A stretch of DNA of 33,839 bases from a virus. The notes beneath the pieces are model-generated. The model was not told the DNA's origin, did not search any database, and saw only the letters and a list, made by a program, of their open reading frames with translations. The DNA is taken from positions 1 to 33,839 of IMG/VR virus record IMGVR_UViG_3300030328_000862; one strand, written 5' to 3'. Made by a program: the position numbers and the translations under genes. Of the stretch, positions 5,238-18,725 are shown piece after piece (position 1 is the first letter of the stretch; every line of letters starts with the position of its first letter).

Positions 5238-5686
5238 TACTCATAGCCATCATTTAACATCTTTCTGGCTCTATCTATAGCACTTACAGATGAAAACTTA
5301 TCTATCTTTTTATTTACATACACCTTTGGTTTATTATATACTTTAGGTTTATAAGTTTGAGGTTTATTCCATCTTTTTTGTACCTTTTGTCTTGCCATTT
5401 CACTTCTTTGTTCAATTTGCTTTTTAACTTCTAATACTTTCTTTTGACTATACTTATCTCCTTTATCTAACAGCATAGGTTCTATATTCTGCATAATCTT
5501 CTTTGCTTTAAATTCTGTAACTCCTAATATACTGGCAATATGTCTTTTATAAATGCTACAATCGTCTTGGAGATACATTGTAGATATTAATGTTATATAT
5601 GCTCCCTTTTCCTCTAAAGTTAATACAGAGCAATCTGTAAGCCATTGTAAAGGATAGAATGGAAATACAAATAATTTATCTTTCAT
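5237..5686 (-). CDS. DUF1376-like replication-associated protein
   Basis: 149 residues. The N-terminal phrase FPFYPLQWLTDCSVLTLEEK followed by GAYITLISTMYLQD matches the DUF1376 pattern (FPFYPxDWLxD...Ls.eE.GAY..LL...w). Winged-helix-like residues follow, then a Lys/Arg-rich tail (about 95-130). Such proteins sit next to phage replication genes and are often annotated as primosomal or replication-initiator-like, without direct biochemical proof. It overlaps the upstream HTH gene by four bases (ATGA) and ends at the SET gene start. Confidence 0.65.
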   Translation of the reverse strand: MKDKLFVFPFYPLQWLTDCSVLTLEEKGAYITLISTMYLQDDCSIYKRHIASILGVTEFKAKKIMQNIEPMLLDKGDKYSQKKVLEVKKQIEQRSEMARQKVQKRWNKPQTYKPKVYNKPKVYVNKKIDKFSSVSAIDRARKMLNDGYE

Positions 5687-5868
5687 AGATTCTCCATTAT
5701 TTTATTCCAAGAGTAGTTATATTTACCCTTGATTTTTTTTAATAAATTTATACTTGCTTTTCTATCTCCTGATAAAAGCATACTTGTATAGGATTTTGAT
5801 ATACCTAACTCTTTAGACACTTGTGTTAAGTTAATTTTGTTTTCTTTCATTATGTTTTCTATAATCAT
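5683..5868 (-). CDS. Small Cro/CI-type helix-turn-helix protein
   Basis: 61 residues. The helix-turn-helix is clear: LTQVSKELGISKSYTSMLLS at about 14-33, followed by helices typical of XRE-family DNA-binding domains. Nothing follows the domain, so it is a Cro-like single-domain regulator. The start at 5868 has AGGA six bases upstream; an internal ATG at 5850 is the alternative. It is the only obvious single-domain repressor candidate in the window and could act at the operators of the divergent region, which is inference. Confidence 0.7.
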   Translation of the reverse strand: MIIENIMKENKINLTQVSKELGISKSYTSMLLSGDRKASINLLKKIKGKYNYSWNKIMENL

Positions 5869-15463: not shown

Positions 15464-15530
15464 GCTAGTAATCGACTAGCCGATAAGAATTAAAATAATT
15501 CTTAATAATGGGATTACTAAATAATCCCAT
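15464..15530. repeat. Stem-loop array C in the 15442-15540 gap
   Basis: TAAGAATT 15484-15491 pairs with AATTCTTA 15497-15504, and ATGGGATT 15508-15515 with AATCCCAT 15523-15530 (extendable by one A-T pair). A third stem GCTAGT 15464-15469 with ACTAGC 15475-15480 lies on the leftward side. The stem order and the ATG at the start of the second stem match arrays A and B. Confidence 0.75.
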
Positions 15531-15539
15531 AGTTAAAAA

Positions 15540-15824
15540 TTAATTTAAGTTAGTTAAAATATAGATTCCGTCTTTTATTTTCTTTTCAATTTCTTTTGTA
15601 GTTTCTTCTAAAAAGATATTCCTATATTTTGATGTAGTAGTTGAATAATTATAGTATTTACTATCAAGATAAATTTTACTTTCTTTATCACTATCAATAA
15701 AATTTTCTATTTTTACTATTATTGAATCATAACTCTGAAAAAATTTATTATTGTTATCATCATAAACAACAAATTGATTTTTAACCTTGTTACCATTTCT
15801 ATTATATAAATTTGATACTTTCAT
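15540..15824 (-). CDS. 94-residue conserved phage protein of unknown function
   Basis: ATG 15824 follows TGGAG. The product has the phrase FFQSYDSIIVKI at 28-39 and later YYNYSTTTSKYRNIFLEE at 57-74. Both phrases recur in small proteins of phages and Gram-positive mobile elements (FQSY..xIA... and Y..TTSK...FL), a family without known function as far as I recall. As the first gene of the leftward block it is probably expressed earliest, from the promoter at 15855-15882. Confidence 0.65.
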   Translation of the reverse strand: MKVSNLYNRNGNKVKNQFVVYDDNNNKFFQSYDSIIVKIENFIDSDKESKIYLDSKYYNYSTTTSKYRNIFLEETTKEIEKKIKDGIYILTNLN

Positions 15825-15854
15825 AATTGCTCCATTTAAATTAATAATACATTT

Positions 15855-15882
15855 AGTATATATATATTTTACTATATGTAAA
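15855..15882 (-). promoter_or_regulatory. Candidate promoter of the leftward early block
   Basis: On the minus strand TTTACA (15877-15882) and TATACT (15855-15860) are 16 bases apart, each five of six to consensus. An inverted repeat, ACATTTAGTA 15849-15858 with TACTATATGT 15870-15879 (nine of ten pairs), covers both boxes and could be an operator. The first gene starts 31 bases from the -10 box. Confidence 0.5.
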
Positions 15883-16037
15883 CATAATAATATAAAATAA
15901 ATGCTAATAATTATTAATAGTAAAATAGGGATTTAATAGACTAAATCAGCGACACTATAAAACAATACCTATAATAACTATATAACAAAGCATATAAGAA
16001 AAACTTAATACACTGTAACCAATTAATTAAATAATAT

Positions 16038-16052
16038 GTAATCTAATATTAT
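16038..16052. repeat. 15-bp direct repeat, copy 1
   Basis: GTAATCTAATATTAT recurs identically at 16066-16080, 28 bases on (start to start). Candidate iteron in the AT-rich region. Confidence 0.7.
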
Positions 16053-16065
16053 TAATAAAATGCTA

Positions 16066-16080
16066 GTAATCTAATATTAT
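16066..16080. repeat. 15-bp direct repeat, copy 2
   Basis: Identical to 16038-16052. Confidence 0.7.
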
Positions 16081-16181
16081 ACTTATACTACAGTATATAC
16101 TAATTATATACTCAATACATACTATATATTAACTATAAACTATTAACTATATTATATATATAAGGTTGCTATTGTTTTAAT

Positions 16182-16221
16182 AGGGTTTATGGCATTTTAA
16201 TAAATAAAGACGTTAAACCCT
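16182..16221. repeat. Inverted repeat AGGGTTTA / TAAACCCT
   Basis: AGGGTTTA 16182-16189 is the perfect reverse complement of TAAACCCT 16214-16221, with a 24-base AT-rich loop. It stands out in the AT-rich region by its GGG/CCC. It could be an origin stem or a leader hairpin. Confidence 0.5.
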
Positions 16222-16257
16222 CTATAAAAAAGAATAGGAGCAAGAAGCTGCAACTTT

Positions 16258-16272
16258 GTTCTCTTTATGTTC
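16258..16272 (+). promoter_or_regulatory. LexA-type box 1 (GTTC-N7-GTTC)
   Basis: GTTC TCTTTAT GTTC. This is the direct-repeat operator known for LexA of alphaproteobacteria. It lies 130 bases (start to start) upstream of the cluster of three further boxes. Confidence 0.6.
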
Positions 16273-16387
16273 TTACCAATACTTTAATAACGATATAATA
16301 AGCATAGAGTAACATTAAATATATATGATACAATCATAACCATTAAGTATTCTATAGCATTGTATAGCGATTATATAGGATATATTT

Positions 16388-16402
16388 GTTCTCTATCTGT
16401 TC
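16388..16402 (+). promoter_or_regulatory. LexA-type box 2 (GTTC-N7-GTTC)
   Basis: GTTC TCTATCT GTTC, just upstream of the candidate -35 element at 16406. Confidence 0.7.
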
Positions 16403-16405
16403 TAG

Positions 16406-16434
16406 TTACTGGTGTTCTCTATTTGTTCTATAAT
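16406..16434 (+). promoter_or_regulatory. Candidate operator-controlled rightward promoter
   Basis: A perfect TATAAT (16429-16434) lies 17 bases from a weak -35 (TTACTG, 16406-16411). Boxes 2, 3 and 4 cover the positions upstream, within the spacer and at the start site, so a bound repressor would block polymerase. The transcript would have a leader of about 220 bases before the small terminase gene. Confidence 0.5.
16414..16428 (+). promoter_or_regulatory. LexA-type box 3 (GTTC-N7-GTTC)
   Basis: GTTC TCTATTT GTTC, inside the spacer of the candidate promoter and directly adjoining its -10 box. Confidence 0.7.
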
Positions 16435-16440
16435 ATATTT

Positions 16441-16455
16441 GTTCTTGCTTTGTTC
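16441..16455 (+). promoter_or_regulatory. LexA-type box 4 (GTTC-N7-GTTC)
   Basis: GTTC TTGCTTT GTTC, at the expected transcription start of the candidate promoter. Boxes 2-4 are 26 and 27 bases apart. Confidence 0.7.
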
Positions 16456-16510
16456 CAGGATAGAAGGTTCATTACAAAAATTTATTTTTGAAATTTATTT
16501 TACAAATCGG

Positions 16511-16624
16511 ATGTGGGGTGGTACTGGTGCTAATCTAAAGGCATACATCAAACACATCCCAACTACCCATAATCGGTTCTACATAATAGTAAAAAACAAA
16601 AAAGGTTTTGACATAAGGGTTTAA
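16511..16624 (+). CDS. Doubtful 37-codon frame in the terminase leader
   Basis: Begins MWGGTGANLKAYIKHIPTTH and ends FDIRV. No SD precedes the ATG and the first 70 bases are unusually G+C-rich for this genome, which may instead reflect a structured RNA or packaging site. A stem GGATGTG 16509-16515 with CACATCC 16553-16559 can form. Listed because it is the only open frame in the stretch. Confidence 0.2.
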   Translation: MWGGTGANLKAYIKHIPTTHNRFYIIVKNKKGFDIRV

Positions 16625-16636
16625 ATTAATTATATG
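16608..16636 (+). promoter_or_regulatory. Candidate promoter of the rightward structural block
   Basis: TTGACA (16608-16613) is perfect; TATATG (16631-16636) follows after 17 bases with four of six matches. The start of the small terminase gene lies 26 bases further on, giving a short leader. It is downstream of the LexA-type boxes, so it may give operator-independent expression. Confidence 0.5.
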
Positions 16637-16661
16637 TGGGTATAACTGTATTGGAGTATTA

Positions 16662-17036
16662 ATGAAAGGCAGACCAAAGTTTGAACCCACAGAGGAGAAT
16701 AAGAAGCAGGTGGAATTAGCTGTTGGGTTTGGATTGAATCAGGACCAGATTGCAAAGTTAATGAATTGTGATGTTACTACCCTCAGGAAATATTTTAGGC
16801 ATGAGTTAGATGCTGGTAAGGAGAAGATGGTAATGTCTATTGGTAGCCAGTTGTATAAGAAGGCTATGAAGGGGGATACTATCTCGGCAATATTTTTAGC
16901 AAAGACGAAAGCTGGTTTTAGAGAAACTGTCGAGCATGAAGGACTACCGAATAATATTACAGTAAGTTTTAATTTAGATGATAAAAAAGAAATTGATGCA
17001 GAAGTTGTGCAGCACAAATTAACGCAGGGAGAATAA
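16662..17036 (+). CDS. terS: Terminase small subunit
   Basis: 124 residues. The N-terminal KGRPKFEPTEENKKQVELAV leads into a helix-turn-helix (LNQDQIAKLMNCDVTTLRKY, about 26-45) of the type that binds phage DNA in small terminase subunits. The middle helices (MSIGSQLYKKAMKGDTISAI) fit the oligomerisation part and the C-terminus is acidic. It should recognise phage DNA and load it on the large subunit encoded 355 bases downstream. GGAG lies six bases before the ATG. Confidence 0.8.
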   Translation: MKGRPKFEPTEENKKQVELAVGFGLNQDQIAKLMNCDVTTLRKYFRHELDAGKEKMVMSIGSQLYKKAMKGDTISAIFLAKTKAGFRETVEHEGLPNNITVSFNLDDKKEIDAEVVQHKLTQGE

Positions 17037-17037
17037 T

Positions 17038-17175
17038 ATGCCATACGGAAAAGGGACATACGGAAGTAGGGTGGGCAGACCTAAAAAAAATAATTACCAA
17101 ATTAAAAGAAATAAAAAAAAAGTACGAATAGTAATGGGTAATAAAAATAAAAAAACTAAAAAAGGAACTGCATAA
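17038..17175 (+). CDS. 45-residue basic protein, MPYGKGTYG family
   Basis: ATG 17038 is one base after the small terminase stop; TAA at 17173-17175. The product begins MPYGKGTYGSRVGRPKK and is Lys/Arg/Asn-rich throughout. I recall the MPYGKGTYG start in small proteins of many marine podoviruses. The GRPKK stretch resembles an AT-hook. Function unknown; DNA contact is plausible. Confidence 0.6.
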   Translation: MPYGKGTYGSRVGRPKKNNYQIKRNKKKVRIVMGNKNKKTKKGTA

Positions 17176-17345
17176 TGAAAGGGGTAAAACATTACAAAAG
17201 AGATGGTTCTTTATTTAAAGGCAACACTCATAAAATGCCAAATGGAGATTTACACTCTGGTAAAACTCATGGCAAGACAAGTGTTAAATTATTTCATTTT
17301 AGTGAACTTTCTAAAACTGCAAAAAATAAAGCTAAAAAAGTATGA
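17175..17345 (+). CDS. 56-residue conserved small phage protein
   Basis: Starts at a TAATG junction. The product begins MKGVKHYKRDGSLFKGNTHK, followed by MPNGDLHSGKTHGKTSVKLF and a Lys-rich end. The HKMPNG...SGKTH...LFHFSELS pattern is one I recall from other marine phages beside terminase genes. Function unknown. It ends 45 bases before the large terminase. Confidence 0.6.
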   Translation: MKGVKHYKRDGSLFKGNTHKMPNGDLHSGKTHGKTSVKLFHFSELSKTAKNKAKKV

Positions 17346-17390
17346 GTATAGCTCGATACTGGTCGTGTAAGAAATGGTAATCTGTTCCCT

Positions 17391-18725
17391 ATGCATATAA
17401 CCATTCCTTACACACCCAGACCACAACAAGCAGACTTACATAAAAATAATAAACGATTTAAAATTTGTGTATCACACAGAAGATGGGGTAAATCTGTGTA
17501 TGCAATTACAGAAATATTACGACACGCATTAGAAATAAAAACAGAAAGAAATGATGGTAGGTTTGCATACATAGCTCCATACTATCGACAAGCAAAAGCT
17601 GTGGCTTGGGATTATTTATTATATTATACAAAAGATATTCCTGGCACAAAAGTAAATCAATCTGAACTACGAGTAGATTTAATTAATGGTAGTCGTATAC
17701 GATTATATGGTGCAGGAGATGATGTTGATGCTCTAAGAGGAATTTTCTTAGATGGGGTAGTTTTAGATGAATATGCAGACATGTCTCCTAGAATGTGGAG
17801 TGAAGTGATACGACCTGCGTTAACAGATAGAAAAGGGTGGGCAATATTTATTGGAACACCAAAAGGTAGAAATCAATTTTGGCAATTATATGAAAATGCA
17901 AAAAGTGATAATGAATGGTATCGAGTTATATATCGTGCAAGTGAAACTGGTGTAGTAGACCCAGTAGAATTAGAAGCAGCAAAAAAACAAATGGGTGAAG
18001 ATGAATATATGCAAGAATTTGAGTGTTCATGGGCAGCTGCTATTAAAGGCTCATACTATGGTAATTTAATAATAGAAGCAGAACAAGAAGGACGAATTAC
18101 AAAAGTAGAAAGAGACCCTGCATTACCTGTTCATGTAGCTTGGGATTTAGGAATATCTGATAGTTGTGCTTTATGGTTTTTCCAAGTTACAATGGGTGAA
18201 ATAAGAATATTTGATTATTATGAAAGTGCAGGAGTGGGATTAGACCACTATGTAAAAGTAATGGATGAAATGCAAATAGAATACTGGGGTGATGATTATT
18301 TACCTCATGATGCTAAAGTAAGAGAGTTAGGAACAGGCAGAACCAGAGCAGAAACTTTAATCAATATGGGTAGACGACCACGCATAGTTCCAAACCATAA
18401 AGTTGATGATGGAATTAATGCTGTACGATTATTGTTGCAAAATTGTTATTTTGATGTTAAGAGATGTGAAAACGGATTAAATGCTTTGAGAAATTACCAA
18501 AGAGAATGGGATGATGTGAAAAGAGTATTCAAAAGAAACCCTTTACACAACTGGGCTTCACATGGTAGTGATAGTTTTAGGTACTTAGCTATGTCGTATA
18601 AAAATATAAAACCAAAAGAAAAAGAACCAGATATTATGAAAGAATTACTGCGTACTCCAACACTAGATGAAATGATGGATATACACGACAGAGAACAACT
18701 TAGAAAACCAGAAAAAAGGATATAA
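17391..18725 (+). CDS. terL: Terminase large subunit
   Basis: 444 residues, typical length. The Walker A-like SHRRWGKS is at 28-35, Walker B VVLDEY at 123-128, the coupling motif GTPKGRN at 155-161, and the nuclease Asp residues in WDLGISDS at 251-258. It is the packaging motor and cuts concatemeric DNA. Immediately upstream the SD is poor, but no better start exists. A GGAG-type site is lacking, so translation may rely on coupling to the preceding gene. The portal gene follows after one small gene. Confidence 0.93.
   Translation: MHITIPYTPRPQQADLHKNNKRFKICVSHRRWGKSVYAITEILRHALEIKTERNDGRFAYIAPYYRQAKAVAWDYLLYYTKDIPGTKVNQSELRVDLINGSRIRLYGAGDDVDALRGIFLDGVVLDEYADMSPRMWSEVIRPALTDRKGWAIFIGTPKGRNQFWQLYENAKSDNEWYRVIYRASETGVVDPVELEAAKKQMGEDEYMQEFECSWAAAIKGSYYGNLIIEAEQEGRITKVERDPALPVHVAWDLGISDSCALWFFQVTMGEIRIFDYYESAGVGLDHYVKVMDEMQIEYWGDDYLPHDAKVRELGTGRTRAETLINMGRRPRIVPNHKVDDGINAVRLLLQNCYFDVKRCENGLNALRNYQREWDDVKRVFKRNPLHNWASHGSDSFRYLAMSYKNIKPKEKEPDIMKELLRTPTLDEMMDIHDREQLRKPEKRI

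Follow-up and report, generated by a model that had tools for sequence, protein, structure and literature searches.

Gene layout and the four boxes

The window considered here is the whole 33,839-base stretch of the IMG/VR virus record IMGVR_UViG_3300030328_000862 (31.8% G+C), and the element in question is a cluster of four GTTC-N7-GTTC boxes, all housed in a divergent intergenic region (15825–16661). Genes transcribed rightward from 16662 encode the small terminase (TerS, 16662–17036, plus strand; phrog_309, 1.7e-9, and phrog_12540), which opens the structural module, the large terminase (TerL, 17391–18725, plus strand; phrog_2, 7.5e-44, and PF03237), the portal, the capsid and tail proteins. 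Leftward early genes start at 15824 on the far side of the region with a first open reading frame (ORF; 15540–15824, minus strand) and include an exonuclease, two DNA methyltransferases, a primase/helicase and a 61-residue Cro-like helix-turn-helix (HTH) protein (5683–5868, minus strand; PF01381). A first-pass annotation of this DNA had described a phage without integrase; neither an integrase nor an S24-type repressor was seen among the scanned ORFs of the window, though the contig may be incomplete.

Box 1 (GTTCTCTTTATGTTC, 16258–16272), box 2 (GTTCTCTATCTGTTC, 16388–16402), box 3 (GTTCTCTATTTGTTC, 16414–16428) and box 4 (GTTCTTGCTTTGTTC, 16441–16455) are on the plus strand at the positions given by that annotation, each with an exact 7-base spacer. 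A TATAAT hexamer (16429–16434, plus strand), the presumed −10 element, directly follows box 3, and box 4 begins 7 bases beyond it, at the presumed transcription start.

GTTC-N7-GTTC occurs 6 times in the whole window versus 0.44 expected in shuffles; the remaining two matches (25062 and 32064, minus strand) are inside or near coding sequence. A stricter pattern, TGTTCT-N5-TGTTCY, combines the motif with the flanking bases common to the operators of umuDC and of ribonucleotide reductase (nrd) in SAR11, and it matches exactly the four boxes versus 0.01 expected. The earlier statement that four such boxes are not due to chance thus stands as far as independent chance is concerned. However, boxes could derive from one another by duplication, and half-site conservation is therefore better evidence than the shuffle count.

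Conservation and exchange among relatives

For the conservation comparison 80 TerL relatives were fetched. Boxes 2–4 are kept with their N7 spacers at an exact 26/27-bp spacing in 15 loci, window included, and in 9 of those box 1 is located exactly 130 bp from box 2. Across the 15 loci 24/24 GTTC positions are invariant versus 25/44 positions between them (Fisher p = 5e-5). The rows were all anchored on a pattern that overlaps 22 of the compared positions, and one locus (L246) had been retrieved with it; outside this pattern are the whole of box 2, the first half-site of box 3 and the second of box 4. Boxes 2 and 4 sit within 26-nucleotide repeats that are 81% alike, and many other matches of the motif are plain 11-bp tandem repeats, as would be expected of functionless tandem-duplication debris. 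Invariant half-sites between drifting linkers, the exact spacing in 15 loci and agreement with the stringent consensus make debris the least credible of the explanations considered.

The boxes are mostly present in contigs with TerS at least 90% identical to that of the window and absent from contigs with TerS 60–75% identical, even where TerL is 94–97% identical. An exception is L038 (TerS 61%), which carries four GTTC half-sites at 11-bp steps. In L007, L015–L017, L024 and L025 TerL is 94–97% identical to that of the window, while TerS is only 64–67% identical to 16662–17036. Since TerS and the boxes diverge while TerL stays at 94–97%, TerS and its upstream region appear to recombine as a module. 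In L029 and L033 an inverted box is found near the place of box 1.

A natural swap is provided by two close relatives, L012 with three boxes and L221 with none. Their HTH proteins are 100% identical, TerS is 99% and replication DNA 98% identical. In place of the boxes L221 carries GTTTACATACGGTAAAC within a TTGTAA-N18-TATAGA sequence. This palindrome is a second copy of the type found at the early promoter, where TTTTACTATATGTAAAC (15867–15883) overlies the leftward promoter TTTACA-N16-TATACT (15882–15855, minus strand). The type is GTTTAC-N5-GTAAAC, with one mismatch in the window, and such palindromes are conserved in several relatives; their location over the early promoter makes TTTTACTATATGTAAAC a likely operator of the phage HTH protein, as judged from sequence. 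Two further relatives (L077 and L223) have two inverted boxes and TerS 98–99% identical. Box presence thus follows the identity of neither protein, since it varies from three boxes through inverted boxes to none at 98–99% TerS identity, and HTH and TerS are unlikely ligands because L012 and L221 differ in boxes despite an identical HTH protein and 99% identical TerS. The boxes seem to behave as an exchangeable operator cassette, for which relatives substitute inverted boxes or the phage's own palindromic operator.

This pair bears on the suggestion, also made in the first-pass annotation, that a phage repressor uses the same code. The boxes would then be operators of a phage-encoded regulator, either the 61-residue HTH protein or an OmpR/CII-like binder of direct repeats. 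For many phage regulators, direct repeats spaced by one helical turn would be suitable sites, and the HTH protein is conserved among box-bearing relatives. Nevertheless, the protein is the same with and without boxes, a different palindrome occupies the early promoter and, in L221, replaces the boxes, and a second regulator was not recognised, many of the early ORFs being unannotated. Such a regulator is considered improbable.

Similar reasoning could be applied to a replication origin with the boxes as iterons, to which the AT-rich intergenic region and direct repeats at helical-turn spacing are suited. Against it, primase/helicase DNA is 98% identical between a box-bearing genome (G308) and a box-less one (G312), and the distribution of the boxes does not follow the primosomal protein, which makes iterons very improbable.

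Probable host LexA operators and the proposed control of late genes

GTTC-N7-GTTC is the LexA motif of alphaproteobacteria (PMC3323433), as the first-pass annotation had stated. In SAR11, LexA is encoded in 12/17 assemblies, and each of the 12 lexA loci has a single GTTC-N7-GTTC close to lexA. In a wider alphaproteobacterial sample a box is found within 400 bp of the lexA match in 24/29 lexA loci, and no further GTTC-N7-GTTC was found elsewhere in those 29 loci of about 3 kb. Recurrent boxes also occur in SAR11 upstream of umuD-umuC and of a ribonucleotide reductase gene (genes identified by visual inspection of the protein sequences). SAR11 LexA retains the cleavage site and the QGDSM motif (one ORF, translated directly). 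The phage boxes have the same flanking T residues as the host operators. The version of box 2 in L009 and L010, GTTCTATATATGTTC, is identical to the SAR11 nrd operator of G002, and that of box 4 in L085, GTTCTTGTTTTGTTC, to a SAR11 umuDC operator; letter identity alone could be due to chance, because the spacers are AT-rich.

The phage host is probably alphaproteobacterial, judging from protein similarities. TerL of the window is about 45% identical to that of HTVC010P-type pelagiphages, and its portal and capsid genes are similar to phage regions of alphaproteobacterial genomes (29–43% and 40–51% identity, respectively). A comparison of TerL with SAR11 genomes gave only relatives at 41–48% and a single weak match at 30%.

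The boxes could therefore be read as an operator of several sites at which the LexA of an alphaproteobacterial host would bind as repressor. We assign this reading a probability of about 0.7, and under it the phage probably couples its late programme to DNA damage in the host. Of the steps involved, the correspondence of motif, spacing and flanking bases with alphaproteobacterial and SAR11 LexA operators is supported by sequence. In an undamaged cell LexA dimers on boxes 2–4 around TATAAT would block a rightward promoter, and box 1, 130 bp upstream, perhaps adds cooperativity. The blocked transcript would cross a leader of 220 bases before reaching TerS and the structural module. Once RecA is activated, whether by ultraviolet light or through replication of the phage and breakdown of host DNA, LexA would cleave itself and transcription would start. 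The boxes would be either a brake deferring the late programme in healthy cells or a timer firing once infection triggers the SOS response. A timer is possible besides a brake because infection with HTVC027P increases the lexA, recA and umuDC transcripts of SAR11 (PMC12753301).

The host loci strengthen the link to host SOS state proposed earlier, which is the best-supported reading; neither a proper −35 of the TATAAT promoter nor its role as the late promoter was confirmed. The TATAAT-containing linker between boxes 3 and 4, TATAATATATTT, is invariant in relatives except for its first base (T/C), whereas the linker between boxes 2 and 3 is mostly variable, a pattern suggestive of a −10 element that lacks a conserved −35. 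The −35 of the first-pass annotation is weak: TTACTG stands at the 17-bp position, and relatives have TTCCTG, TTGCAG, TAGTAA, TAATAA or TGCCTG. A promoter scan gave no match at the boxes and no overall excess.

Several observations weigh against control by host LexA. With TATAAT lacking a conserved −35, it is unsure which promoter the boxes control. TerS has a promoter-like sequence of its own 150 bp downstream, so the boxes may not be needed for late-gene expression: TTGACA-N17-TATATG (16608–16636, plus strand), a probable sigma-70 promoter read from the sequence, is similar in several box-less relatives, and this conserved sequence may serve the late operon by itself. The spacers match a position weight matrix of SAR11 operators only moderately, which is suggestive (training boxes typed by hand from listed matches). 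The portal was found in 0/397 SAR11 genomes and, at 29–43% identity, in 10/385 sampled alphaproteobacterial genomes. A tandem box array was present in none of the stretches searched of ten named phage records (the pelagiphages HTVC010P, 023P, 027P, 035P, Lederberg and Skadi-2, and the records 023Pt_psg01, C72C1, CRP-901 and DSL-LC04), where only Skadi-2 and CRP-901 have a stray single GTTC-N7-GTTC. HTVC023P and HTVC027P, which have no boxes, are the closest named-host relatives of L394, one of the array-bearing contigs described below. Another phage-encoded ligand is possible, the comparison having covered the HTH protein, TerS, primase/helicase and the primosomal protein.

The principle of a late promoter run by LexA is already known, since late promoter P3 of Bacillus phage GIL01, which serves virion maturation and lysis, has tandem boxes for host LexA (PMC6182141, PMC4551915). 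In the window the tandem LexA-type boxes are upstream of the terminase and structural module, where a late promoter, if there is one, would give the same SOS-linked late expression. GIL01 has no dedicated phage repressor for lysogeny, and the window is likewise without an S24-type repressor among the ORFs scanned. GIL01 has Gram-positive LexA boxes in a Bacillus phage, whereas the window has direct repeats of the alphaproteobacterial type in a marine tailed phage. GIL01 requires the co-repressor gp7 and the activator gp6; a counterpart was not identified here, small unannotated early ORFs not having been compared. Alphaproteobacterial LexA operators (PMC3323433) share with the window the code, the flanking T residues and perhaps the placement at promoters, but the host genes examined mostly have a single box near the start, while the window has four in 200 bp. 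In CtrA-dependent lytic deferment, sites for a host regulator are concentrated in promoter regions of alphaproteobacterial phages of several lineages, and a delay of lysis was proposed (PMC9437464). The likeness would be host-regulator sites in phage promoter regions; CtrA belongs to the cell cycle and LexA to DNA damage. CtrA boxes have the form TTAA-N7-TTAA, a pattern that is uninformative in DNA of 68% AT. Host LexA also runs the switch of other phages, as far as these are represented by the citations in PMC9437464; measured against those, the cluster of the window differs in preceding a terminase. What looks new is an array of direct repeats of the alphaproteobacterial type in a tailed marine phage, together with the natural swap and with arrays that recur ahead of unrelated terminases.

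If host LexA does occupy the boxes, phages of abundant ocean bacteria would sense DNA damage via the host's own repressor, and packaging and structural genes would be held back until SOS is on. Lysis would be deferred without an integrase or a phage repressor, which could help to account for environmental phage sequences that have no cultured representative. The pair L012/L221 offers a natural experiment on the exchange of operator types, and enrichment before unrelated terminases a testable genome-wide signature.

Recurrence before other terminases and adjoining elements

A scan of IMG/VR for two tandem boxes gave at least 120 matches, and a mirrored control pattern gave 59. Many of the forward matches are 11-bp tandem repeats or coding, and since these confounded the first count, only non-coding arrays were compared with the control. 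Among the matches listed, to which the following forward counts refer, 73/111 forward arrays are non-coding versus 23/59 in the control. Large ORFs downstream (within 4.5 kb, transcribed away from the array) belong to TerL families in at least 20 of 70 cases and to the portal family in 13, compared with 1/14 and 0/14 in the control. TerL is located downstream of the array in 20 of the 21 loci with a TerL detected by similarity, with several of the TerL seeds taken from the very loci counted and with near-duplicates among the loci. A G/C run of at least 5 is found within 80 bp of 30/71 non-coding arrays versus 7.8 expected (computed from the arrays' own contigs) and 1/23 in the control. All these comparisons were devised after examples had been seen, on data that were not de-replicated. 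The terminases behind the arrays belong to several families. The window has the same layout, its G-rich block at 16508 being 52 bp from box 4.

Arrays of GTTCTTGTTTTGTTC-like boxes beside C or G runs, mostly before terminase genes, occur in L355, L362, L364, L374, L379 and L394, phages unrelated to the window.

The location of the arrays is relevant to a further explanation, in which the boxes would be repeats recognised by TerS at a pac or cos site. In its favour, they lie upstream of TerS with a conserved palindrome, a T-tract and a G-rich block beside them, TerS is mostly divergent in box-negative relatives, and arrays of other phages are also near terminase genes and G/C runs. Nonetheless, L012 with three boxes, L077 with two inverted ones and L221 with none have TerS proteins that are 98–99% identical, the same box code is used by phages with unrelated terminases, and contig ends in the fetched loci do not cluster near the palindrome as expected of a cos site with fixed ends (read from tables, no formal test). 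A pac or cos function of the boxes is accordingly improbable, on a par with the phage-encoded regulator. Tandem boxes precede TerL in unrelated contigs, which a shared host factor explains better than unrelated terminases do.

A broader proposal could be put forward tentatively, as possible though not likely: tandem LexA-type boxes with a G/C tract before the terminase would have arisen or spread in several unrelated environmental phage lineages. Host LexA would gate packaging or a late step, perhaps at the packaging site itself, and virion production would await host SOS without phage lysogeny machinery.

The block downstream of box 4 (16466–16545) comprises a GG(N2)CC-like palindrome, a T-tract and then a G-rich stretch ending in (C)TAAAGGCATA or ATAAAGTA. 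It is found upstream of TerS with or without boxes, and also in L014, L037, L048, L054, L055 and L058. Its short palindrome-like element, read from alignments, is GGTTCATT (16466–16473, plus strand), with variants GGGACCCA and GGTACATT in relatives. The conserved G-rich block CGGATGTGGGGTGGTACTGGTGCTAATCTAAAGGCATA (16508–16545, plus strand), present in box-less relatives too, is a candidate packaging site or other cis element. A structured RNA in the leader is unsupported, the z-score being 0.28 in the window, with no consensus pairs across 14 relatives. An Rfam search of 15500–17400 gave a single sub-threshold microRNA match, which was discarded. An A-tract, AAAAAAG(A/G)(A/G) (about 16225–16235), recurs ahead of the palindrome in almost every relative that shares this intergenic region.

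One contig among the relatives, represented by L040 and L042 (IMGVR_UViG_3300030116_002682, 62,884 bases; G327), carries TerL twice, the copies being about 35 kb from each other, and encodes two distinct HTH proteins (50% and 43% identical to that of the window); it is either a tandem of two phage genomes or an assembly chimera. In L342 and L356 the LexA-type boxes alternate with TGTCAA-like inverted repeats (TGTCAAAGTTTTGAC; TGTCAATTTCTTGACA), which suggests a second regulator at the same site.
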